Of a DNA stretch of 64,000 nt, positions 41,883-53,641 are shown piece by piece. Below the pieces are notes generated by a model that saw nothing but the letters and a program-made list of their open reading frames with translations, did no database searches and had not been told where the DNA came from. The stretch lies in contig JBFMDX010000011.1 of assembly GCA_040753795.1 (NCBI GenBank), positions 1 to 64,000 of the forward strand, read 5' to 3'. The position numbers and the translations under genes are program-made. How positions within the stretch are numbered: position 1 is the first letter of the stretch; the number at the start of each line of letters is the position of its first letter. This DNA comes from Thermodesulfobacteriota bacterium. GTDB taxonomy: Bacteria; Desulfobacterota; Desulfobacteria; Desulfobacterales; Desulfosudaceae.

Positions 41883-43475
41883 TTATTTTCCGCCGCGTAC
41901 CGCGCGCACATAATAGGTGGCGGTCTTGTTGACATGACCGCTGCCGCCGGAGCTGAAGCTGACCAGCCAGGCGTCGTCCAGATAATAGGCGTTGGTCGTG
42001 GACGTCCAGTACGAGGAGGAAACCGTATCCGGGAATAAGCCCGTGTTGATCTTCACAAAACCGCCGTCCCCGTCCACGATGGAGTGCAGTTCCTTGAGGG
42101 TGGGCAGGCGCCAGTCATTATATCCGGCCAGGGAGGCGTTTTCGCACCAGGCCAGGGCCTGCTGCCAGGTCATGGCGTTCGGGGCCGTCACCTGCGACCA
42201 CATCAGGCCGGTGGCCTGGTCGGTCACCGTGGCGTTTCTGTTATCCGTAAACGACGGCGCGGTCTGCTGGCCGCGGACCGCCCGCAGATAATAAGAGATG
42301 GATTCATACAGATCGTGGTCCTGCCCGGTAATGAAATTGACGCTCCAGGGAGCGCCCATGTTGTCGGCGTAAGCCGTTGACGTCAGGTAGTAGGAAAAGA
42401 CGGTGTGGGGAAAATAGTCGGTATTGATGGACGGGCTGTAGACGCCGTAATCGGCCAGACAGATCAGCTCCAGCTTGGAGGGGATCCGCCAGTCGGAAAA
42501 ACCGCCGAACCGGTCGGCGTTGAGGCGGGCGATAAAGGCGTCGGCGGCGTTATACCAGGCATAGCGGTTGTCCTTGTCGTTAAAGCCGCCGTCATCGGTC
42601 TTGGCCTCCCAGATCAGGCCGGTGACATTGTCCCGGACCGTGACCCATTCCGCGGCGTCGTCCGGCAGTTCATTGCCGTCGCCGTCCAGCTTGGCATAAG
42701 AAGGCGGGTGAAGGGTATAACAGCCGTCCTGGCCGTAAAGCGCCGCGCCCGGTGCCGGGCAGGCGGAGACATTGCCGGCGTTGTCGTAGCAGGCGATCTG
42801 TCCGGTATCCGGAAAGAACGGGCAACCGGCGTCCGCCTGGCCGTCGCAGTCATTGTCCGTCCCGTCCCAGCACCTTTCCGGGGCGCCGGGATAAACGGCG
42901 GCATTATCATCGTTGCAGTCCGGCTCTCCGGCGCAATCGCTCTGGACATAGAAACCGTCGCCGTCCGCGTCCGTGCAGTTGGTGTTTTCGTCAATCTCGC
43001 CGTTGCAGTTATTATCGATGCCGTCACCGCCGATTTCCGCTGTCCCGGGATAAATGGAGGCGTTGGCGTCATCGCAGTCCACGACTGAGCCGCAGCCGGG
43101 CTGACCGAAAAAGCCGTCCCCGTCCGCGTCGGTGCAGGGGCAACCTTCGTTGGTCCGGCCGTCACAGTTGTTATCCGCGCCGTCGCCGCAGACCTCCGCC
43201 ACTCCGGGACGGATCTCCGCGTCGGTATCGTCACAGTCGCTGTCGTTGGACACATAACCCTGGGGCAGGGAAGTGCTTCTCATGGTATCAGCCGGATTCC
43301 CGTACCCGTCTCCATCGGCATCGCGGTAATAGGAAACGCCCTCGGTGTCATTCGAATAACCGCCGCCGCTGTTACCGCCACTGCTGGTACCAATGATAGC
43401 CGCCAGGCCGAAAATGACGATTGCCAGCAGGCCGGCCGAACGCAATACATTTAAAAGTCGGGAAGGCTGTTTCAT
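41883..43475 (-). CDS. MopE-like/DUF1566 lipoprotein, paralogue A
   Basis: A 530-residue exported protein. After an N-terminal hydrophobic segment (about residues 12-28), four MopE-type repeats follow (about 45-215), each built on DADGDGYG or DADGDGF, a DCDD pair, IxPGxxEVCGDGxDNNCDGxxDEGC. These bind calcium through Asp-rich loops. The C-terminal 260 residues are two DUF1566 (Lcl-like) domains with the strand GLIWEAKTDDGGFNDKDN and WRIPSKLEL. The gene has a GGAGAACATC ribosome site shared with its twin at 44049. Surface location is likely; function is unknown. It overlaps the small membrane gene by ATGA. Confidence 0.85.
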   Translation of the reverse strand: MKQPSRLLNVLRSAGLLAIVIFGLAAIIGTSSGGNSGGGYSNDTEGVSYYRDADGDGYGNPADTMRSTSLPQGYVSNDSDCDDTDAEIRPGVAEVCGDGADNNCDGRTNEGCPCTDADGDGFFGQPGCGSVVDCDDANASIYPGTAEIGGDGIDNNCNGEIDENTNCTDADGDGFYVQSDCAGEPDCNDDNAAVYPGAPERCWDGTDNDCDGQADAGCPFFPDTGQIACYDNAGNVSACPAPGAALYGQDGCYTLHPPSYAKLDGDGNELPDDAAEWVTVRDNVTGLIWEAKTDDGGFNDKDNRYAWYNAADAFIARLNADRFGGFSDWRIPSKLELICLADYGVYSPSINTDYFPHTVFSYYLTSTAYADNMGAPWSVNFITGQDHDLYESISYYLRAVRGQQTAPSFTDNRNATVTDQATGLMWSQVTAPNAMTWQQALAWCENASLAGYNDWRLPTLKELHSIVDGDGGFVKINTGLFPDTVSSSYWTSTTNAYYLDDAWLVSFSSGGSGHVNKTATYYVRAVRGGK

Positions 43476-43954
43476 GATGTTCTCCTTTTATCCTGACCGG
43501 ATAGTAAAATCAGATAAGCGACAACAGCGCCGATAACGATGGCGATCATATCATGATTGCTGTAAACTCCATGCATAAAATAATCCCGGGTTTTCTCCAG
43601 AAGAAAAACACCGTCAAACCAGTCCGGCACCAGGCCGGCAGCCTGAACGCTGTATTTCTGGCCCAGTTCGAAGCCGCCGTCCACCGCCAGCCAGAACAGA
43701 CAGACCAGGGGGTACCACCGCCGTCCGCAGTTCAGAATTCCCGCCGTCAGCAGAATAAAAGCCACCACATGCAGAAAATCCGGGAGCACATCCCCCAGGG
43801 GGCCGAACAGGGGCGGGTACACCCGGTAAAGACTTATAGAAACAGGCAACACCTGCAGGAAAAAGGTCTGGTCCGGCGGGCGATCGACGAGATAAACCAG
43901 CGTCCCGATCATCAGGGACAAGAGACCGAGCAGTATGTGTCGAAGATTGATCAT
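43472..43954 (-). CDS. Small multi-span membrane protein (possibly VanZ-like)
   Basis: A 160-residue protein with four hydrophobic segments: near the N-terminus (LLGLLSLMIGTLVYLV), around residues 60-80 (FLHVVAFILLTAGILNC), 85-100 and at the C-terminus (MIAIVIGAVVAYLILL). The order and the FLHVVAF segment recall VanZ-like proteins, but the match is weak. The start at 43954 is chosen; an ATG at 44026 in the same frame is an alternative. Its stop overlaps the start of paralogue A, and it lies 95 bp after paralogue B, so the three may be one transcript. Confidence 0.65.
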   Translation of the reverse strand: MINLRHILLGLLSLMIGTLVYLVDRPPDQTFFLQVLPVSISLYRVYPPLFGPLGDVLPDFLHVVAFILLTAGILNCGRRWYPLVCLFWLAVDGGFELGQKYSVQAAGLVPDWFDGVFLLEKTRDYFMHGVYSNHDMIAIVIGAVVAYLILLSGQDKRRTS

Positions 43955-44048
43955 CGCCCCGTTGCGCGCGCCTGATCCCCGACCCTGCCGGACCGGCACA
44001 TATCCGTCAATCGTTCCCGTTGTCATCCCCGTCCATATCGTCTTTTTA

Positions 44049-45641
44049 TCAGAAAGCCGATCCCCGGCCGCCCCGGACCGCACGAACGTAATAGGTGGAA
44101 TTCTTGCTGCCGTGACCGTTGTTGCCCAGGCTGAAACTGACCAGCCAGGCCTGCCCGGGATTGTAGGCACTGGACGTGGAGGTCCAGTAATAGGCCGCCA
44201 TGGTATCCGGGAAATAGGTGCTGTCGACCGCCAGGCCGTCCACATCATCATCCACGATTGACGCCAGTTCCTTGAGGGTGGGCAGCCGCCAGTCTTCGTA
44301 ACCGGCCAGGGAGAGGTCTTCGCACCAGGCCAGGGCCGCCTGCCAGTTCAAGGGCGTCAGATCGGTAACCTGCGACCACATCAGGCCGGTGGCGTTATCG
44401 GTGACCGTGCCGTCGCCGTTAGCGGTAAAGGCCGACGGGGTCTGGTTGCCGCGAACCGCGCGCACGTAATAAGTCGTGGTATTGTCCAGGTCAAAATCAT
44501 GACCGTAGAGGAAGTTGATGCAGGAAGATTCCCCCGGATTGTCGGCATAGGTCGGATAGGCCCAGTAATAGGAGGGGATGGTGTTGGGAAAAGCATTCAT
44601 GTCAATGGCCGGATTATAATTATCGTAATCGACGATGGACAGCAGTTCCCGCTGGGTCGGTATCCGCCAGTCGGAATAGCCGCCGTATTGATCGGCGTTC
44701 AGCCGGGCGATAAAAACGTTGAGGGCGTTATACCAGGTATAGCGGTCATCCTTGTCATGGATCCCGTCGTCATCGGTCTTGAGTTCCCAGATCAGGCCGG
44801 TGACATTATCCTTGACCATGAAATCGTTGGCGTTACCGCGTACCCGGGTATAAGAGGGAGGATTGATGGTATAGCAGGCATCCTGACCGTAAAGGGCCCT
44901 TCCGGCGACGGGACAGGTAATGACATGTCCGTCATTGTCATAGCAGGTGGTCTGGCCGGTATCCGGGACAGGCGACAGCCCGGCCTGGCATTCCTCGTCG
45001 ATCTGTCCGTCGCAGTCGTTATCATGACCGTCCCCGCAGGCCTCCACGGCGCCGGGATGGTCGGCGGCGTTTCCGTCATTGCAGTCCACGGGCGTACCGC
45101 AGTCATTCTGGGCATAATAGCCGTCATCATCCTGGTCCGTGCAGGTGGGGAGGCAGCCCTCGTCAACCTGCCCGTCGCAGTTGTTATCGATATTGTCCCA
45201 GCAGACCTCATTCGCACCGGGACGGATGTCGGGATCGGCATCATCACAATCCACGGCGGCGCCGGTTCCGGTTTCGGCATAGGCGCCGTCGCCGTCCATA
45301 TCCGTGAAGTCGCAATTCACATCAATCCGGCCATCGCAGTTATTGTCGATGCCGTCGCCGCAAATTTCCGCGGCGCCGGGATTGATGCTCCGGTCGCTGT
45401 CCAGGCAGTCCGTATTATCGGTCACATAGTAACCCAGCGGGAGGGTATCAAACCGGGCGGAATCATCCGGATCGCCATATCCGTCGCCATCGCTGTCACG
45501 ATAATAGGTCCGTGACTCGTCACGGTTTGAAAGCCCGCTGCCCCCGCCGCCGGTGCCGATGATGGACACCATTCCCAGGACAAGAATGGCCAGAAAACCA
45601 GCCAGACGGACCGTGTAAAAAAGCCGGGAGGACTGTTTCAT
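44049..45641 (-). CDS. MopE-like/DUF1566 lipoprotein, paralogue B
   Basis: A 530-residue twin of the protein at 41883 with the same architecture: hydrophobic N-terminus (LVLGMVSIIGTGGGG), four Asp/Cys-rich MopE repeats (DSDGDGYGDPD, CGDGIDNNCDGRIDVNC and so on) and two C-terminal DUF1566 domains (GLIWELKTDDDGIHDKDD, WRLPTKELA-like). The identical length and domain order show a gene duplication, though the sequences have diverged. MopE repeats bind calcium, and the MopE parent of Methylococcus binds copper. It carries the same GGAGAACATC ribosome site and is the first gene of this group. Confidence 0.85.
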   Translation of the reverse strand: MKQSSRLFYTVRLAGFLAILVLGMVSIIGTGGGGSGLSNRDESRTYYRDSDGDGYGDPDDSARFDTLPLGYYVTDNTDCLDSDRSINPGAAEICGDGIDNNCDGRIDVNCDFTDMDGDGAYAETGTGAAVDCDDADPDIRPGANEVCWDNIDNNCDGQVDEGCLPTCTDQDDDGYYAQNDCGTPVDCNDGNAADHPGAVEACGDGHDNDCDGQIDEECQAGLSPVPDTGQTTCYDNDGHVITCPVAGRALYGQDACYTINPPSYTRVRGNANDFMVKDNVTGLIWELKTDDDGIHDKDDRYTWYNALNVFIARLNADQYGGYSDWRIPTQRELLSIVDYDNYNPAIDMNAFPNTIPSYYWAYPTYADNPGESSCINFLYGHDFDLDNTTTYYVRAVRGNQTPSAFTANGDGTVTDNATGLMWSQVTDLTPLNWQAALAWCEDLSLAGYEDWRLPTLKELASIVDDDVDGLAVDSTYFPDTMAAYYWTSTSSAYNPGQAWLVSFSLGNNGHGSKNSTYYVRAVRGGRGSAF

Positions 45642-45958: not shown

Positions 45959-46915
45959 ATGCGCCCTTCATTCCGGAAAACGGTTGTTGGCCTGCTGGTC
46001 GCTGCCATTATAGGCCTTCCGGCCGGGGCCGGCGAACTATTCCAGGCGGATGTTTCCGCCGGATGCGGCGCCATCAGCGGGGACACGGAATACCGCATCG
46101 GCGGCAGGGTCAGAAACGCCGGCGGGACCTATGTGACCCATTTCCCCGTCAGCAAGCTGGATTTCCCCATCGACGCCTACGTGCTTTCCCTCAACGCCGA
46201 AATCGCCTTTCTTAACAGCCTGGTCTGTTCCTTCTCCTGGGCAACGGATCTGAGCAGTGATCCGGACGACATGCGGGATTATGACTGGATCGACTCCCCC
46301 GATGAGCTCACCATTTATTCGGAAAGCGATCTGGACATGGAAACGGACACGCTCTCGGGGAAAATTCAGTATCGCTTTCCCGCCATAGGCCTGGGCCGTC
46401 TTCCTCTCTTTTTTTCCGATGCAGACCGCCTGCGGCTGCTGGCCGGCGCCGGATATCTTTACCGGCAGCTCGACTTTGAAGCCGGAGATACCTGGCAGAC
46501 CTATCCGGGCGGAAGCAGACAAGATGTTTTCGTGCCCGGCCGCACGTTGAACTATTCGGTCGAATACCGGATTCCTTTTCTTGAACTGGGCGCGCGACTG
46601 GAAACAGCGGACAACATAACAGTGGAATGTTCCGCCGGGTACAGCCCGTATGTCGACGCCACCGACAAGGACCGTCATCTGACCCGGAACCTGACCTCCA
46701 GGGCCGATTGCGACGGGGACGCGTGGCTGCTCTCATTCCGGGGAAGCTACCCGTTTCTGGAGCGCTGGTACGGCGCCTTATCCCTGTCCCAGATCTACAT
46801 TGAAGCCGACGGAACAGCCGACACCTATATCAACGACAGCTGGAGTTATTCCATTGAGGAAGATATGGAAAGCGACCAGTTCACGGCCCTGCTGGAAGTG
46901 GGCGTCCGGTTCTGA
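45959..46915 (+). CDS. Omptin-like outer-membrane protease
   Basis: A 318-residue beta-barrel protein with a signal peptide ending near residue 25 (LPAGAGEL). It matches omptins (OmpT and Pla) in key places: MRDYDWIDS carries D107 and D109, aligned with the catalytic Asp83 and Asp85 of OmpT, and ATDKDRHLTRNL carries D238 and H240, aligned with Asp210 and His212. The ending LLEVGVRF is a barrel C-terminus. Omptins cleave peptides on the cell surface with lipopolysaccharide as cofactor. The ATG at 45959 follows AAAGGA. The alignment was made by eye, but the conserved catalytic set makes omptin the best call. Confidence 0.8.
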   Translation: MRPSFRKTVVGLLVAAIIGLPAGAGELFQADVSAGCGAISGDTEYRIGGRVRNAGGTYVTHFPVSKLDFPIDAYVLSLNAEIAFLNSLVCSFSWATDLSSDPDDMRDYDWIDSPDELTIYSESDLDMETDTLSGKIQYRFPAIGLGRLPLFFSDADRLRLLAGAGYLYRQLDFEAGDTWQTYPGGSRQDVFVPGRTLNYSVEYRIPFLELGARLETADNITVECSAGYSPYVDATDKDRHLTRNLTSRADCDGDAWLLSFRGSYPFLERWYGALSLSQIYIEADGTADTYINDSWSYSIEEDMESDQFTALLEVGVRF

Positions 46916-46943: not shown

Positions 46944-47807
46944 TCACACCACCTGCCGGGTGATCTGCTCCTCATGGGGCGCGAACCTTCCGGCCAGCCA
47001 CCTGACGATTACCTCCGCGGGTTTGAGAAATGTCGTGGTGGCGCCTTCCGGACAATACCTGACGCAACTGTAGCAGTAGGTACAGTGTTTCCCGTGAACA
47101 GCCACCCGATCGAGTGCGATATTGCCGGTCGGGCAATTCATCACGCACAGGCCGCATCCCGTACAGGCCGTTTTCTTGACCCGGATGCCCGGCATGCTCC
47201 AGGCGAAGGTCTTCAGGCTGTTGACATGGGCATCAAAAAAATTAAGCAGAAACGGTTTGTCCCGGAACGCCTCCGGAAGATATTTCCTGCCGGTTTTGTC
47301 CGTCAGCCGGGCAACCAGCGTTTTACCGAACTCCCTGATAACCGCAAGGTCCCCTTCCCCGGGACGGCCGCCATGAAAGGCCTCTTTCTCCTGAAACGTC
47401 AGGCAATGCTCGGCCAGCACCTGAATGCCGCCGATCAGGCGATATTTTTTTCCATAAAGCGACCTGGCAAGGTCAAATTGAATCACGCCGCTTGACACGC
47501 CGCCGAAAGTGGAAAGAAAGGCCACGGCCTGGTTCCCACCGGCATCGGGAATGTTTCTGATAAAATCCGTAAACACCGGCGGGGCGTGGTGGAAATAGGT
47601 GGGCGAACCGAAAACGATCAGCGCGTAGGAAGGCAGGCGGAGATACAGTTCCTCCCTGTCGCCCTCGAATTCGCGCATGTCGCGGACATCGGCCGCCACC
47701 CCGTTTCGCGTCAGGGACGCGGCCAGCGCTTCGACCGCCCGCCGGGTGGTGCCGTGGGGAGAAAGATAGAGCACCAGCGCTTCAGGTTGTTTTGCCTCTT
47801 CCGTCAT
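46944..47807 (-). CDS. Flavodoxin-2[4Fe-4S] ferredoxin fusion (EFR1 type)
   Basis: A 287-residue protein. The N-terminal flavodoxin-like domain (LVLYLSPHGTTRRAVEALA, VFGSPTYFHHAPP) covers about residues 10-160. The C-terminal part has two ferredoxin motifs: CTGCGLCVMNCPTGNIAL and CTYCYSCVRYCPEGATTTF. This layout is the EFR1 family. Such proteins carry electrons between FMN and iron-sulfur clusters. It is on the same strand as, and 209 bp after, the radical SAM genes, which need a low-potential electron donor. The start at 47807 has an AAGGA ribosome site; an upstream ATG at 47843 lacks one. Confidence 0.85.
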   Translation of the reverse strand: MTEEAKQPEALVLYLSPHGTTRRAVEALAASLTRNGVAADVRDMREFEGDREELYLRLPSYALIVFGSPTYFHHAPPVFTDFIRNIPDAGGNQAVAFLSTFGGVSSGVIQFDLARSLYGKKYRLIGGIQVLAEHCLTFQEKEAFHGGRPGEGDLAVIREFGKTLVARLTDKTGRKYLPEAFRDKPFLLNFFDAHVNSLKTFAWSMPGIRVKKTACTGCGLCVMNCPTGNIALDRVAVHGKHCTYCYSCVRYCPEGATTTFLKPAEVIVRWLAGRFAPHEEQITRQVV

Positions 47808-48015
47808 GGGTTGCGTCCTTAAGGTAACGATGCGCTGATCCATTGTTATTTTGAAAACGATGCTATACCGGACAGACATACCAGAAAACGCAACACCGGA
47901 CAACCGGCAATCCTATCCTGACACCAGGCAGTTTCCGGTATTGATATGAACATTCCGACTCAACCCCGGGAGACAGGCTGGCCCTGCCAGCGCCCCGGCA
48001 CGAAGGAGGAACGGG

Positions 48016-49545
48016 TTACCGCCGGGCCCAGAGCAGGCGGGCGGTTCCGACCGCTTTCCCGAAACAGGCCACGGCATTGACCAGGGGGCGGGCGTCATCT
48101 CTGCTGATGGAGTAGAGCCGCTCCACGCCGGTCTCATGTAATCGCTCCGCCAGGGAACGGTGAATAACGGCCATGAGATCCACGGGCACGTACAGGTGGA
48201 CCGGCAGGCCCAGCCGGGCCATGACCCCGGCCTTTTCAAGGGCGGAGGCCAGTTCCGCCGGCACATCCGTTTGCGGTTGCGTTGCCGGCGAGGGCAGCGC
48301 CAGAAGAATCTTAACGGCTTCCACGGGAAAGGATCGGAGACGTTCGGCCGTGGCGGCATCAATACCCGGTGGGCCGCAGGCGGTCCAGAGAACGATCTTC
48401 ATGTGCCGGGGCACACGGGCCAGGATTTCCCACAGGGCATCCTGCCGGAAGGCGTCCCCGCCGTAAAATTCGATCCGGGTATAGTCGGGCGGCAGCCTGT
48501 CGATTGCCTGAAGGATATCGTCCGTCGGCCGGCAGGCGGACCGCCGGCCGTAATCGCATTCCGGGCAAGCGGTGGCGCAGGGGGCGCCCAGATCGATCTG
48601 ATTCTCCACGGTAATGGGAAAAAAAGGACGGCCCAGGCCCAGCGGCCGCAGATAGGTGTCGATATACGCCCCGTTTCTCATGGGGCAGTAGTCGCCGCCC
48701 AGGCGGACCAGGGGATGGGACTGGATGCGCTCGAACACATCCACGACCGGTTCCCGGACGGCGTCCCCGAAGACCAGCGGGAAGTATGGACAGGGCGTCA
48801 TCCAGCCGTTGCTCATGATATGGCAGAAGACCTGTTTGGCCGTGCACAGGTTTTTTTCGCCCGGCGGCGTTCCCGGCGTATGAACGTAGATGAACGGATA
48901 GTATTCCGGAGAAACATAGGAGAAGAGGTCCTTTTCTTCTCCGGCGTACAGGGGGCCGCCCTGGTCGCGGATGGAATCACCGGCGAACCGGGGCAGCAGC
49001 ACCCGGACCTGCGCGGCGCCGCGCTCCCGGACAAAACTCATGAACCGGTTCATGTCCCCGCTGAAAAAAAATTCCCGGCTCGGCGGAACGATGGAGACAT
49101 GCATGAGGATGCCCGCCCGGGCGCCCAGCTCCAGGGCCCGCACGGCCCGATCAAAACACCCCTGCCGGCCGCGGACATCGTCATGGCGTTCGGCCCGGTA
49201 GTCATCCAGGCTGACATAGATCTGATCCAGCCCGGCCGACACCAGGCCGGCCATGTAAGCCTCGTCAATAACATACCCGTTGGTCTCCAGAGAGACGAAG
49301 AAGCCGTATGCCTTGCCCCGCCGGATGATGTCACACAAATCATGCCGCAGGGTGGGCTCGCCGCCGAACAGATCGACCACCCGGCACCCGGCCAGTTTCA
49401 GGTCCTGGAAAAGCGCCTCGATCCGGTCCAGGGGGAGTTCCTCCGGCATTTCCCGGCGCAGTTGCGACACACCGCAGTGCCGGCAGCGGCACTGGCAACG
49501 GTTGGTCACCGTCAACTGCACCACGTTGATCGTCGGCAGGCCCAT
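48016..49545 (-). CDS. Tandem radical SAM protein
   Basis: A 509-residue protein. The N-terminal radical SAM domain has C17-x3-C21-x2-C24 and FGGEP, followed by a SPASM-like region with CHIMSNGWMTPCPYF and DYCPMRN. From about residue 305 a second segment repeats the radical SAM order: a strand (FFPITVENQIDLG), C323-x3-C327-x2-C330, a GGDAF turn like GGEP, and a strand ending LWTACG. This suggests a second radical SAM fold, although its cluster might instead be a SPASM auxiliary. It starts 2 bp after the last methylthiotransferase-like gene. Substrate is unknown; a peptide or protein target is possible. Confidence 0.8.
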   Translation of the reverse strand: MGLPTINVVQLTVTNRCQCRCRHCGVSQLRREMPEELPLDRIEALFQDLKLAGCRVVDLFGGEPTLRHDLCDIIRRGKAYGFFVSLETNGYVIDEAYMAGLVSAGLDQIYVSLDDYRAERHDDVRGRQGCFDRAVRALELGARAGILMHVSIVPPSREFFFSGDMNRFMSFVRERGAAQVRVLLPRFAGDSIRDQGGPLYAGEEKDLFSYVSPEYYPFIYVHTPGTPPGEKNLCTAKQVFCHIMSNGWMTPCPYFPLVFGDAVREPVVDVFERIQSHPLVRLGGDYCPMRNGAYIDTYLRPLGLGRPFFPITVENQIDLGAPCATACPECDYGRRSACRPTDDILQAIDRLPPDYTRIEFYGGDAFRQDALWEILARVPRHMKIVLWTACGPPGIDAATAERLRSFPVEAVKILLALPSPATQPQTDVPAELASALEKAGVMARLGLPVHLYVPVDLMAVIHRSLAERLHETGVERLYSISRDDARPLVNAVACFGKAVGTARLLWARR

Positions 49546-49547
49546 GA

Positions 49548-50699
49548 TTATCCCCCCGTTTCGCGGGTCACATTATAGGGAAGGTCGCAGTTAAAATCGC
49601 TGATGACGGCACCGCCGCCGGGCCCGCGGCGGTTGACGTAATCCGAGGCCCGGTCCAGCCGCTTCCGCCGCTCCTCGTCGGACACCTTGGGATAAATGTC
49701 GGCGGCGGCCGTCCCCCGGTTGTCGGAATAGTTCAGAAAAATGGCGGTTTCAAAGGCGTCGGCCAGGACCAGGGAAGCCTGAAAATCCGCTTCGGTTTCC
49801 GTGGGAAAATTGATCATGAGATGAGTGCAGAACCGGGTTTCCGGCGCGGCATCCCGGAGTTGCAGCACTTTCTCCCGGACCGCTTCGGCTGTGTAGCGGC
49901 GGTTCATGAGATCCAGAATCCGTTGAGACCCGGACTGCACCGGGATGTTGACATAGCTGATCCGGCCGGTTCCGAACAGCCCCTTGAGGCGGTCAAAATG
50001 GGTGAGGACAAAGCGCGGGAACAGATATCCCAGTTTCACCCGGAACCCGTCCGCGACGGCAAAAATATCCTCCAGCAGTGCCGCCAGATCCGTCCCGAGA
50101 TCCCGCCCGTAGCTGGCACAGTCATCGGCCAGCAGCGCGAACTCCTTCACTCCGGCCGAAAGGCCCTGCCGGATTTCAGCCCGGATGGTTTCCGGGTGCC
50201 GGCTGCGGACATCCCCCTTGGCCCGCCGGATGTTGCAGTAGGAACAGCCGTTGGCGCACCCCTGGGCGATCATGACAAAATAGTCCCGGTATCCCAGCCC
50301 CTGGCCCGGCTCATAAAAAACCGGCGGCAGTTGATGCGTCTCGATCCGGTCCAGCGGGATCCGGTAAGCAAAATGATCTTGCAGCCGATCCAGGCAATGC
50401 GGACCGATACGGATGAGGTTTTCCGGTTCCGGCCCGTCAGGCGGCAGCTCGGCCAGGCAGCCCAGCAGCACGATCTGTTTTCCTCCGCCCCCGGCCCGGG
50501 CGGCATCTAAAGCCTGCCGCGAGGTCGCGATCTTGTCCTCGGTGACGCAGCAGGAGTTTACCAGGACGATGTCGCTTTCTTCGACATCACCGGCCGGGAC
50601 ATAGCCGTTGGCCAGAAAAAAATTCACCGCCCGGGTAAAAAGATAGGCGCTCGGTTCACACCGTTTGCTGGGATCGATGATGAAGAAAGATGGTGCCAT
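49548..50699 (-). CDS. TRAM-less methylthiotransferase-like radical SAM protein 1
   Basis: A 383-residue protein of the MiaB/RimO/MtaB type. The UPF0004-like N-terminal domain keeps the three auxiliary-cluster cysteines: C14 in KRCEP, C50/C51 in VNSCCV and C81 in LLGCLAE. The radical SAM motif is C148-x3-C152-x2-C155. A conserved LLADDCASYG replaces the usual GQD/N motif. The chain ends about 60 residues early, without a TRAM domain, so tRNA is an unlikely substrate. The start lies one base after the stop of paralogue 2. It probably attaches sulfur or methylthio groups; the target is unknown. Confidence 0.85.
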   Translation of the reverse strand: MAPSFFIIDPSKRCEPSAYLFTRAVNFFLANGYVPAGDVEESDIVLVNSCCVTEDKIATSRQALDAARAGGGGKQIVLLGCLAELPPDGPEPENLIRIGPHCLDRLQDHFAYRIPLDRIETHQLPPVFYEPGQGLGYRDYFVMIAQGCANGCSYCNIRRAKGDVRSRHPETIRAEIRQGLSAGVKEFALLADDCASYGRDLGTDLAALLEDIFAVADGFRVKLGYLFPRFVLTHFDRLKGLFGTGRISYVNIPVQSGSQRILDLMNRRYTAEAVREKVLQLRDAAPETRFCTHLMINFPTETEADFQASLVLADAFETAIFLNYSDNRGTAAADIYPKVSDEERRKRLDRASDYVNRRGPGGGAVISDFNCDLPYNVTRETGG

Positions 50700-50700
50700 G

Positions 50701-51933
50701 TCAGCAGCCCCTTGCTTTCCGGTCCAGGTTGTAAGGCATGTTGCAGTCGAAATGACCGATCACGACACCACTGCCGGGCCGGCGGCGATTGACATAGTCC
50801 GAAGCCAGATCCAGACGACGGCGCACTTCCTGCTCCGGGACCTTGGGCTGGATGCCGGCGGCAATGGTCCCCTGATTGTCGGAGTAGTTGAGAAAAATCA
50901 CGCCATCAAACTCATCGGCCAGGTGCAGGCAGTCCTGGAAATCAGCCTCGGATTCAGTGGGGAAATTAATCATGAAATGGGTACAGAAGGGCGTACGCGG
51001 GGCCGCGGCCCGCAGTTGCCGGACGGCCTGCCGGATTCCGGCGATGTCATAGCGCCGGTTCATGAGGTCAAGAATCCGCTGGGAGCCGGACTGCACCGGA
51101 ATGTTGACGTAGGAGATCCGGCCGGTGGCAAACAGGTCCCGGAGCCGTTCAAAATGACTCAACACCATTCCGGGGAACAAATAGCCCAGCTTCACCCGGA
51201 ACCCGTCCCCGAGGGAAAACATCCTTTCCAGAAGCAGCGTCAGATCGATCCCCAGATCCCGGCCATAACTGGCGCAGTCATCGGCCACCAGGGCGAACTC
51301 CTTCACCCCCAGTGACAGCCCCTGCCGGATTTCATCCAGAATGGTTTCCGGCGGCCGGCTGCGGACGCCGCCCTTGACCCGCCGGATATTGCAGTAGGAA
51401 CAGCCGTTGGCGCAGCCGTGGGCGATCATGACCAGGTAGTCTCCGTACCCCAGCCCCTGGCTGGGCTCATAAAAGACCGGCGGCAGGTGATGCACCTCGA
51501 TCCGGCTCAAGGGGACGTGGTGGGGAAAGTGCCGTTCCAGTTCCAGGAGCGTGTCCGGGTGCTCGGGGCCGATGACGATCAGGTCCTTCCGGTCCACCCC
51601 CGGAAGCGGCAGGCCGGCCAGGCAGCCGAAGAGCACGACCCGCTTGCCCTTTCCCCGGGCCAGGGCGGCGTCCAGGTCCGCCCGCGAGGCCGCCAGCATA
51701 TCTTTGGTGACGCAACAGGAATTGACCAGGATGATGTCGCTTTCGCCGATGTCGCCGGTCATCACATATCCGTTGACCAGAAAAAATTTTACCATCCGGG
51801 TAAACTGGTAGGCGTTGGGCTCGCAGCGTTTGATGGGATCAAAGATAAAAATCCGGCCGCGGCTAACTGAACCGTCGATGTCGGGCGTGACAACAGGCTG
51901 CGCCGGCGGATATGCCGGTGTTCCAGCTTCCAC
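50701..51933 (-). CDS. TRAM-less methylthiotransferase-like radical SAM protein 2
   Basis: A 410-residue paralogue of the gene at 49548 and the closer of the two other copies. It keeps the same marks: DPIKRCEPNAYQFTRMV, VNSCCVTKD, LFGCLAG, MIAHGCANGCSYCNIRRVKGG, LVADDCASYG and MNRRYD. It has a 25-residue N-terminal extension (from a GTG start at 51933 with AGAGGT upstream) and again no TRAM domain. Arrangement in tandem with the same length and motifs points to duplication followed by divergence in substrate or position modified. Confidence 0.85.
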   Translation of the reverse strand: MEAGTPAYPPAQPVVTPDIDGSVSRGRIFIFDPIKRCEPNAYQFTRMVKFFLVNGYVMTGDIGESDIILVNSCCVTKDMLAASRADLDAALARGKGKRVVLFGCLAGLPLPGVDRKDLIVIGPEHPDTLLELERHFPHHVPLSRIEVHHLPPVFYEPSQGLGYGDYLVMIAHGCANGCSYCNIRRVKGGVRSRPPETILDEIRQGLSLGVKEFALVADDCASYGRDLGIDLTLLLERMFSLGDGFRVKLGYLFPGMVLSHFERLRDLFATGRISYVNIPVQSGSQRILDLMNRRYDIAGIRQAVRQLRAAAPRTPFCTHFMINFPTESEADFQDCLHLADEFDGVIFLNYSDNQGTIAAGIQPKVPEQEVRRRLDLASDYVNRRRPGSGVVIGHFDCNMPYNLDRKARGC

Positions 51934-52015
51934 TTCAGAATACCTCTTGCGGGTCAGGGATTGTGTAGAACGTCATCACCAATCAGTCAAGCCGATCTTC
52001 GGATCCGAAACCGCC

Positions 52016-53134
52016 TCACGTACGCGGCACCACGAAGGCGGTCAGCCGGCCTTCCCGGACCAGTCCTTCCAGGCGCCGGGTCTTGGTTTGCAGCTCCCGG
52101 TCATCGCATTTCGGGAAAATGGCCGCCGCCCGGGTGCCGCTGTTTTCCCCGTAGCCGATGAACACGCAATGATCAAAATAACGGGCGAAATTCAGGCTCT
52201 GTTCAAACTCCTCCGGCGTTTCGGTGGGAAAATTATAAATGAAATGAGAACATACAAACAGCTCCGGGTCAAGCGACTTGAGCCGACCGATGGCTTCAGC
52301 CACTTCGCCGGTATCATAGCGCCGGTTCATCAGGTCCAGAATCCGGGGGGCGGCCGACTGAACCGGCAGACACATGTAGGCAATCCGGCGGCCGGCGACA
52401 AACGGCTCAAGCCGCCTCGCCTGTTTCAAAAAAATCCCCGGGAACATGGCGTAAATTTTGTAGTTCATTCCGGGGGTCGTGCGGTTAAGCCGGTCCAGCA
52501 GCGACGGCAGATCCGTGGCCCCGTCCAGTCCATAGGAGCCGCAGTCGTCGGCCAGCAGGGTCACGGTGCGGGTGCCCCGGTCGTAAAGGTCGCGGATTTC
52601 CGAGACGATGGCCGCTTCCGGGCGGCTGGTCACCGCGCCCTTGGCCTTTTTGATGGTGCAGTAACTGCAGTCATTGACGCATCCCTGGGCTATCAGCACA
52701 TAGGCATCGTCGGAACCCATACGGGGCTGATAGGGGACATGCCCCGTCAAATGATTAACGCTGACCGATTCAAAGGGGATTCGGGCGTCGATGATGTTGT
52801 CCAGCGCCCGGCCTTCCCGGACAGGAATGAGGGCGATGCGGTTTTCGGTGGCATCGCCGGTCAGCAGATTTTCCGGAAAGGCTGCCAGGCAGCCGAACAC
52901 CACCACCCGGGCCCGATTCCGGGACGCCGCAAGTTCTCGAATATTTTCCTCGCACCGCTGGCGCATGGCGTCGGTGACGGCGCAGCCGCCAACAAAAATC
53001 ATGTCCACCCCGTCTCCCTGATCCGAATCGTCGATCACATGGTGGCCGTTCAGCTCAAAGTATCGCCGGGCCCGGGATAGGAACAAGGTGTTGTGTTCAC
53101 ACAGGTCATGCAGATTGTAGATGGTAATTTTCAT
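52016..53134 (-). CDS. TRAM-less methylthiotransferase-like radical SAM protein 3
   Basis: A 372-residue, more divergent paralogue and the first gene of the cluster. The N-terminal cysteines are C12 (LHDLCEHN), FVGGCAVTD and VFGCLAAF; the radical SAM motif is in GCVNDCSYCTIKKAKG. LLADDCGSYG and MNRRYD are shared with paralogues 1 and 2; TRAM is absent. The ATG at 53134 gives an N-terminus that aligns with the paralogues; an in-frame ATG at 53161 lacks support as well, so the start is uncertain. The 82-bp gap to paralogue 2 has no terminator. Confidence 0.82.
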   Translation of the reverse strand: MKITIYNLHDLCEHNTLFLSRARRYFELNGHHVIDDSDQGDGVDMIFVGGCAVTDAMRQRCEENIRELAASRNRARVVVFGCLAAFPENLLTGDATENRIALIPVREGRALDNIIDARIPFESVSVNHLTGHVPYQPRMGSDDAYVLIAQGCVNDCSYCTIKKAKGAVTSRPEAAIVSEIRDLYDRGTRTVTLLADDCGSYGLDGATDLPSLLDRLNRTTPGMNYKIYAMFPGIFLKQARRLEPFVAGRRIAYMCLPVQSAAPRILDLMNRRYDTGEVAEAIGRLKSLDPELFVCSHFIYNFPTETPEEFEQSLNFARYFDHCVFIGYGENSGTRAAAIFPKCDDRELQTKTRRLEGLVREGRLTAFVVPRT

Positions 53135-53279
53135 AGTCGGGAATACGGCGGCCGGCCACATCGGTCGGGGGATAAAAACAACCTGCGCTGATGGCCGACG
53201 GAAGGGAAAAACAAAACAACAGGCAACGAACGATCCGGTCCGTGATCGGGATTCTCCGTTTTGGATCTGAAGGGGATGC

Positions 53280-53314: not shown

Positions 53315-53641
53315 CTATTTTGTTTTCACCCGAAGCTGGTTGATGTTGGAGTCAAGCAGTCTCTCCCCCCATCCGATCAACTGGCCATTGACCAGAACGA
53401 CCGGGGTGCTTTCATCTTTCAGTGTCAGGATGACCGCGCCCCTGTCTTTCATGCGGTAATAAAGAATGGAAACCATGCTGCCGTCCACCGCTTCGTACAA
53501 CTCGCTCCTTTCCGGAACACCCATGACCGTGATGACCTGCTCCTGGGACATGCCGGTGGTCAACGTCAGCATTTTCTTCTGGGTTGACGCGCATGAACAC
53601 AGGCAAACAAGAATAACGACGCACACGAGAATTTTTTTCAT
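53315..53641 (-). CDS. Small BamE/SmpA-like lipoprotein
   Basis: A 108-residue protein with a basic signal peptide and lipobox VCLCSC (acylated Cys expected near residue 17). The mature part TLTTGMSQEQVITVMGVPERSE is the helix-helix signature of the SmpA/OmlA/BamE fold, and RMKDRGAVILTLKDESTPVVLVNGQLIGWG provides the strands. It may stabilise outer-membrane proteins or act as a small anchor. The ATG has an AAAGGA ribosome site. A hairpin separates it from the radical SAM genes. Confidence 0.75.
   Translation of the reverse strand: MKKILVCVVILVCLCSCASTQKKMLTLTTGMSQEQVITVMGVPERSELYEAVDGSMVSILYYRMKDRGAVILTLKDESTPVVLVNGQLIGWGERLLDSNINQLRVKTK

Follow-up and report, generated by a model that had tools for sequence, protein, structure and literature searches.

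We detected three methylthiotransferase-like genes (A, B and C) whose products lack a TRAM domain, followed by genes for a tandem radical S-adenosylmethionine (SAM) protein (D) and a flavodoxin-ferredoxin fusion (E), in a stretch of 64,000 nucleotides (the window) from contig JBFMDX010000011.1 of a Thermodesulfobacteriota bacterium (GCA_040753795.1; here genome G000, contig C11). Based on their domains, their conserved cysteines and their gene context in other genomes, we propose that A–D constitute a dedicated cassette that would form C–S bonds on a protein or peptide of an export system resembling those of ribosomally synthesized and post-translationally modified peptides (RiPPs), and not on tRNA or the ribosomal protein S12; we give this reading a probability of about one half. 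An initial annotation of the window, made from the sequence alone, had described the five genes as a minus-strand cluster at positions 46944–53134 with gaps of 82, 1, 2 and 208 bp, and all five open reading frames (ORFs) were found as described when its start codons were used.

The proteins A, B and C belong to a family of nine members in five genomes (G000, G153, G448, G748 and G770). The domains UPF0004 and Radical_SAM matched all three above the Pfam cut-offs (A was scanned with a longer start at 53161), while no Pfam match to TRAM was found at E ≤ 1 in A, B or C, and none in any of the nine members. The same search recovered TRAM in two of the three ordinary methylthiotransferases of G000 (at 59.1 bits, and at 17.8 bits, below the cut-off of 21) and missed it in the third (441 aa), so that the length of the tail is the better evidence. 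All nine family members have 32–48 residues after a common landmark, versus 88–123 in all 24 ordinary rows compared, and A, B and C end approximately 40–90 residues sooner than the ordinary enzymes. Their earlier description as TRAM-less proteins is thus supported by both the profile search and the tail lengths.

The six cysteines of the two Fe–S clusters, i.e., the UPF0004 triad of the auxiliary cluster and the CX3CX2C triad of the radical SAM cluster, are invariant in all nine members, as expected of enzymes that still insert sulfur. In C these are residues 14, 50 and 81 (auxiliary cluster) and 148, 152 and 155 (radical SAM cluster). An additional, seventh cysteine (residue 194 in C) lies in an [AG]DDC[GA]SYG motif present in 9/9 family rows versus 0/24 ordinary rows, which carry V, T, L or I at this position.

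The best NCBIfam match of A, B and C was TIGR00089, at 172.8, 196.8 and 202.1 bits, respectively, all below its cut-off of 251 bits, and the three proteins also fall under the equivalog cut-offs for MiaB, RimO and MtaB. Genome G000 encodes three further enzymes of this type, a MiaB (470.7 bits), a RimO (444.2 bits, cut-off 357) and a MtaB (382.6 bits), each above its NCBIfam equivalog cut-off and each passing TIGR00089 as well. The possibility, raised in the initial annotation, that A, B and C are ordinary replacements of MiaB, RimO and MtaB with a TRAM-like domain detectable by profile search can therefore be set aside, since one orthodox copy of each is encoded elsewhere in the genome and A–C carry no TRAM.

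The family was further delimited by a search of 25 genomes, which form part of the 40 genomes with matches to the M50-HlyD secretion protein described below, the 15 excluded having only weak matches. Its members score 552–601 bits with their own profile, the best other match listed reaching 187 bits, and they were found only in the five genomes bearing D. In a tree of 33 rows, the nine family rows group together, separated by a branch with 100/100 support from those of MiaB, RimO and MtaB. The other 24 rows are L001–L003, L037 and 20 of the ordinary matches from the 25-genome search, the remaining ordinary matches of that search and the archaeal and eukaryotic e-MtaB being left out. L037 had been considered as a relative, being the sole match to the peptide pattern in the genome contigs; we read it as a MtaB-like gene of ordinary length, and it was retained only as an ordinary row. 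The clade contains A-type (100/100) and B-type (91/93) groups, and the G448 protein branches separately. B and C are sisters with 69% identity and, judging from their sequences, are a recent local duplication. The three copies previously noticed are thus three genes indeed, but they represent two subfamilies, one of them recently doubled.

An AlphaFold2 model of C, built from an alignment of A, B and C only, reached a pLDDT (predicted local distance difference test) of 70.4, and its first matches among structures in the PDB were MiaB, MtaB and RimO (E from 3.1e-19). With a template modelling (TM) score of about 0.5 and a root-mean-square deviation of about 9, these matches support membership in the family but no finer conclusions. 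By sequence, the best match among solved structures is RimO (4jc0, E 2.5e-52). Overall, the sequence comparisons argue for A, B and C being a distinct branch of MiaB/RimO-type enzymes, i.e., a new branch of a known superfamily in a new context.

The second half of D matches its first half in a profile comparison (probability 96, E 3.7e-9), and the CX3CX2C motif of this second half is invariant in the four full-length members, which supports the earlier view of D as a likely tandem radical SAM protein. The second half could also be aligned in register with another radical SAM family, although not significantly (E 0.077), and the match to an unrelated family was not significant either. The D protein of G448 comprises the first domain only. 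D falls below every NCBIfam cut-off shown, its best match being the GeoRSP radical SAM family (TIGR04303) through the first half, at 99.3 versus 400 bits. A model of D alone had a low-confidence pLDDT of 47.6, with alternating strands and helices. The protein E passes the cut-off of the NCBIfam EFR1 ferredoxin family (NF038196; 81.7 versus 75 bits), in agreement with its annotation as a flavodoxin-ferredoxin fusion. E was seen at none of the four other D-bearing loci, which were viewed locus by locus without a genome-wide search for E. We therefore do not count it as a conserved part of the cassette, and it is a possible electron donor only.

Strong matches to D were found in 2 of the 395 genomes of the phylum, including G000, while the 58 other genomes listed match weakly (115.6 bits or less). 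They were found in 2/291 genomes of the order set, in 3/141 genomes of the order of G153 and, in the class, in one genome of 389, G000 itself; the phylum, class and order sets overlap. No relatives were found among plasmids and viral contigs. The initial annotation had tied the idea of a dedicated pathway to conservation of the gene order in other genomes, and this is the case for the pair of methylthiotransferase and D, since a methylthiotransferase gene immediately adjoins D in all five D-bearing genomes.

The same five genomes all encode an M50-HlyD protein, a component of a secretion module that consists of a PqqD-M50-HlyD fusion and a short SecA-like ATPase, usually with a GAF-HlyD protein. 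In three of them (G153, G748 and G770) the methylthiotransferase and D genes adjoin this module; in G770, where the contig stops at the M50-HlyD gene, no GAF-HlyD was seen. The N-terminus of M50-HlyD is PqqD-like, with the G000 copy scoring 26.9 against a cut-off of 23.4 and four other copies scoring 16.4–23.2, below it. The M50 part of the two copies scanned matches NF041824 at 151.8 and 156.4 bits, below the cut-off of 300 bits. In the order of G153, all three D-bearing genomes are among the 12 of 141 with M50-HlyD at E < 1e-100, and in the phylum set both are among the 10 of 395. Between G000/G153 and G748/G770 the M50-HlyD proteins are 29–32% identical and the D proteins 54–58%. This difference in conservation points to one cassette having become associated with two secretion lineages that had diverged. 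Taken together, the link between the cassette and the secretion module is moderately supported.

The secretion module also co-occurs with giant proteins of the LEPR-XLL type. A long repetitive ORF lies beside the pair-adjoining module in two genomes. In G153, an open frame of 15,071 aa (C1:94651–139866; L125/L049/L045) adjoins the module and bears LEPR-XLL at its N-terminus (29.6 bits against a cut-off of 17). Beside the module of G748 there is an open frame of 1,800 aa that is cut off by the contig end, the LEPR-XLL match of this genome being on another contig. LEPR-XLL (NF012209), a model of only 24 positions, scored above its cut-off in 13 of 14 genomes with the secretion module versus 1 of 14 controls, other controls with matches being sub-threshold. 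An LE-x-R-x-LLS-type motif is common to 11 of the 13 LEPR-XLL N-termini, those of G747 and G772 not fitting the pattern. Long, repetitive-looking frames were also observed beside the secretion module in G752, G740, G362 and G333.

The neighbourhood of the cassette in the four other genomes contains recurring companions, namely F296, a protein for which no family was found (4/4), a radical SAM protein (rSAM307; 4/4) and an O-methyltransferase (OMT; 3/4). The same three were seen beside secretion modules that lack the methylthiotransferases, at 3 of the 10 such loci viewed (G752, G740 and G387), which ties these modification genes to export. A DUF3467 fusion gene stands in the same-strand run with D and A in G153, large proteins with the C-terminal part of this fusion are present in G748 and G770, and in both G153 and G000 the secretion module includes free DUF3467 genes. 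Neither G000 nor G448 has the fusion, G000 having only the free gene. In G448 (L042:5535–8305), D is directly followed by a gene of the DUF5838 family, which we take to be the cyanobactin-type prenyltransferase family, and by a protein with an activase-like Fer4_12 domain. In G770 (L044:12526–13743), a B12-binding radical SAM gene, with the PhpK family as its best match below the cut-off, lies beside the methylthiotransferase gene of the cassette. We considered F296 as a prenyltransferase and found no support for it. The initial annotation had proposed examining conserved neighbours for a precursor peptide or target protein; F296, rSAM307 and OMT are such recurring neighbours, and no precursor peptide was identified.

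Several observations weigh against an assignment of the cassette to this export system. The cassette (C11) and the secretion module (C22) are not adjacent in G000, and in G448 they are on separate contigs (the secretion module on C81) of an assembly with 8% contamination. The methylthiotransferase family is absent from 20 of the 25 tested genomes with M50-HlyD matches, four of which (G105, G386, G312 and G102) have weaker ones, so that the cassette is an accessory at most. The co-occurrence of D and M50-HlyD would arise by chance with a probability of 4.8e-4 in the order of G153 and 5.8e-4 in the phylum set, or 3.4e-3 and 2.4e-3, respectively, at the looser E ≤ 1e-40 (22 and 20 genomes), figures which ignore kinship (G748 and G770 are congeneric, both sets contain G153, and it was G000 that led to the search). 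The limit of E < 1e-100 was, moreover, chosen once the lists had been seen. The searches for D and the other large searches scored only a few top candidates in each genome, so that some relatives may have been missed. G000 lacks F296 and PTl, two of the companion proteins, and the two window gaps listed, which do not include the 82-bp gap, contain no convincing gene for a small precursor peptide. A whole-genome search of G000 found no LEPR-XLL gene above the cut-off, the best match having 12.6 bits versus 17. Since C22 stops beside the module, some 300 bp upstream of the DUF3467 gene, an assembly gap of this genome could hide a giant gene. The contig ends of G000 (all except the right ends of C13–C20 and the final 554 bases of C33) show several long frames running off, some of them repetitive by eye, and none could be identified as the giant gene.

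For the chemistry we propose the following scheme. The auxiliary [4Fe–4S] cluster of A, B and C would carry the sulfur and, as in RimO and MiaB, this sulfur would be methylated by a first SAM, while the 5'-deoxyadenosyl radical generated at the radical SAM cluster would abstract hydrogen from an unactivated carbon atom, with a C–S bond, either methylthio or bare thio, being formed on the substrate. Methylthiotransferases are described in PMC10702137 as using one SAM to methylate the sulfur at the auxiliary cluster and another to make the radical. D, which combines a normal radical SAM domain with a divergent one, may act on the same substrate, either preparing it or processing it further, and the electrons might come from E or another reductase. 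The substrate would most likely be handled by the RiPP-like system predicted to export giant LEPR-XLL surface proteins. The predicted parts of this system are a protein that unites a PqqD-like recognition domain with an M50 protease and an HlyD adaptor, HlyD-type adaptors and the short SecA. The presence of both cysteine triads, the lack of TRAM and the peptide-type recognition domain in the companion system together favour a protein or peptide as the target. A narrower version, in which the TRAM-less clade and its tandem partner install C–S bonds on the giant LEPR-XLL proteins themselves, or on a DUF3467 partner or leader, during PqqD-guided export, is a tentative possibility that we regard as less likely than not.

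The main rival is that the cassette makes a small molecule or a classical small RiPP unrelated to the export of giant proteins, its co-occurrence with the secretion module reflecting a shared lifestyle or island. The distance between cassette and module in G000 fits this idea, as do the peptide or cofactor maturases among the best family matches of D and the extra radical SAM genes, O-methyltransferase, B12-radical SAM gene (G770) and DUF5838 gene (G448) beside the cassette in some genomes. The absence of a convincing small precursor gene in the two gaps listed speaks against it, and so does the fact that F296, rSAM307 and OMT also accompany secretion modules without the methylthiotransferases; we consider this explanation rather unlikely. 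The initial annotation had left the target as a peptide, a protein or a small molecule, and its idea of a dedicated pathway agrees with the orthodox trio encoded elsewhere, the lack of TRAM and the 5/5 pairing with D. A protein or peptide is now the best reading, and the small molecule is left as a rival only.

The presence of orthodox MiaB, RimO and MtaB in G000 also makes a tRNA or an intracellular protein a less likely target. Modification of tRNA by A, B and C, e.g., for fidelity in translating very long repetitive proteins, would agree with their nearest known relatives being MiaB, MtaB and RimO, a family that acts mostly on tRNA, and the discrimination of tRNA substrates is reportedly not based on TRAM (PMC10702137). 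The proteins nevertheless have no TRAM and little room for one, orthodox MiaB and MtaB are already in place, and D, with which they are paired, shows no RNA-modifying family among its 25 best NCBIfam matches, making this a quite improbable role. A RimO-like action on a ribosomal or other intracellular protein, with an indirect link to export, draws on the RimO structure as the closest solved relative. It must be set against the orthodox RimO of G000 and the rarity of the cassette (2/395 phylum genomes), which is ill-suited to a housekeeping target, and we believe it to be just as improbable.

The features of the locus are listed in the table below. The start of A is backed by the G153 orthologue, which begins with the same first residue, and chance ORFs are excluded by the conservation of A (51–59% identity to A-type relatives) and D (54–58% to full-length relatives). 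A scan for promoters and terminators gave counts similar to those of shuffled sequence.

Features of the cassette in the window (contig C11 of G000)
Feature	Position	Strand	Description
Gene A	52016..53134	(-)	TRAM-less methylthiotransferase-like radical SAM protein, A-type, 372 aa; UPF0004 + Radical_SAM
Gene B	50701..51933	(-)	TRAM-less methylthiotransferase-like protein, B-type, 410 aa, GTG start
Gene C	49548..50699	(-)	TRAM-less methylthiotransferase-like protein, B-type, 383 aa, recent duplicate of B
Gene D	48016..49545	(-)	Tandem radical SAM protein, 509 aa; Radical_SAM in first half
Second, divergent radical SAM-like domain of D	48187..48588	(-)	Invariant CX3CX2C + profile self-match
Gene E	46944..47807	(-)	Flavodoxin + 2[4Fe–4S] ferredoxin fusion, EFR1 family

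Three further features surround the cassette in the window. A small DUF3192/BamE-like gene (53315–53641, minus strand) lies about 180 bp upstream of A on the same strand, and a homologue of the omptin-family outer-membrane proteases (45962–46915, plus strand; Pfam 46.3 bits) is convergent with the cassette. Two adjacent paralogous proteins of 530 aa, 55% identical and with Asp/Cys-rich repeats, are encoded at 41883–45641 on the minus strand.

The known substrates of methylthiotransferases are tRNA and one ribosomal protein, with RimO as the sole known member acting off tRNA, according to PMC10702137. The relevant passages of PMC13063428 deal with RimO and its proposed accessory factor, and in PMC8326336 the word methylthiotransferase occurs only in the reference list. 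The literature searched contained no methylthiotransferase in a RiPP-like or surface-protein system, which is weak evidence of novelty as most subscription papers lay outside the search, and neither an account of DUF3467 nor a description of an export machinery for giant LEPR-XLL surface proteins. This agrees with the earlier statement that no known pathway has this make-up. If the proposed function is correct, a TRAM-less clade tied to export would add a new target class for methylthiotransferases and offer a natural test of the purpose of TRAM. It would also hint that giant surface proteins of bacteria are chemically decorated in a way not suspected so far. In the narrower version, the chemistry of peptide natural products would extend to proteins with 10,000 or more residues.

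Compared with known systems, the M50 part of the secretion protein resembles, by its match to NF041824, the HExxH metalloproteases of the Daptide and YydH-LiaK type involved in RiPP maturation, and it likewise comes with a PqqD-like N-terminus. It differs from them in its score below the cut-off, its fusion to HlyD and its neighbours, which include a short SecA and, in several of the genomes, ORFs that are long and repetitive. As in RiPP systems, the PqqD recognition domain is above the cut-off in the M50-HlyD protein of G000, although on a contig other than that of the cassette. The LEPR-XLL giant surface proteins accompany the secretion module in nearly all genomes compared and were not found in the genome of the window. 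D is closest to the GeoRSP-type radical SAM/SPASM proteins in its first half, far under their cut-off, and differs from them by its second radical SAM-like domain. With MiaB, RimO and MtaB, the proteins A–C share the order of UPF0004 and radical SAM domains, both cysteine triads and a similar predicted fold, and they are set apart from these enzymes by the missing TRAM, a clade of their own, the extra invariant cysteine and the pairing with D.

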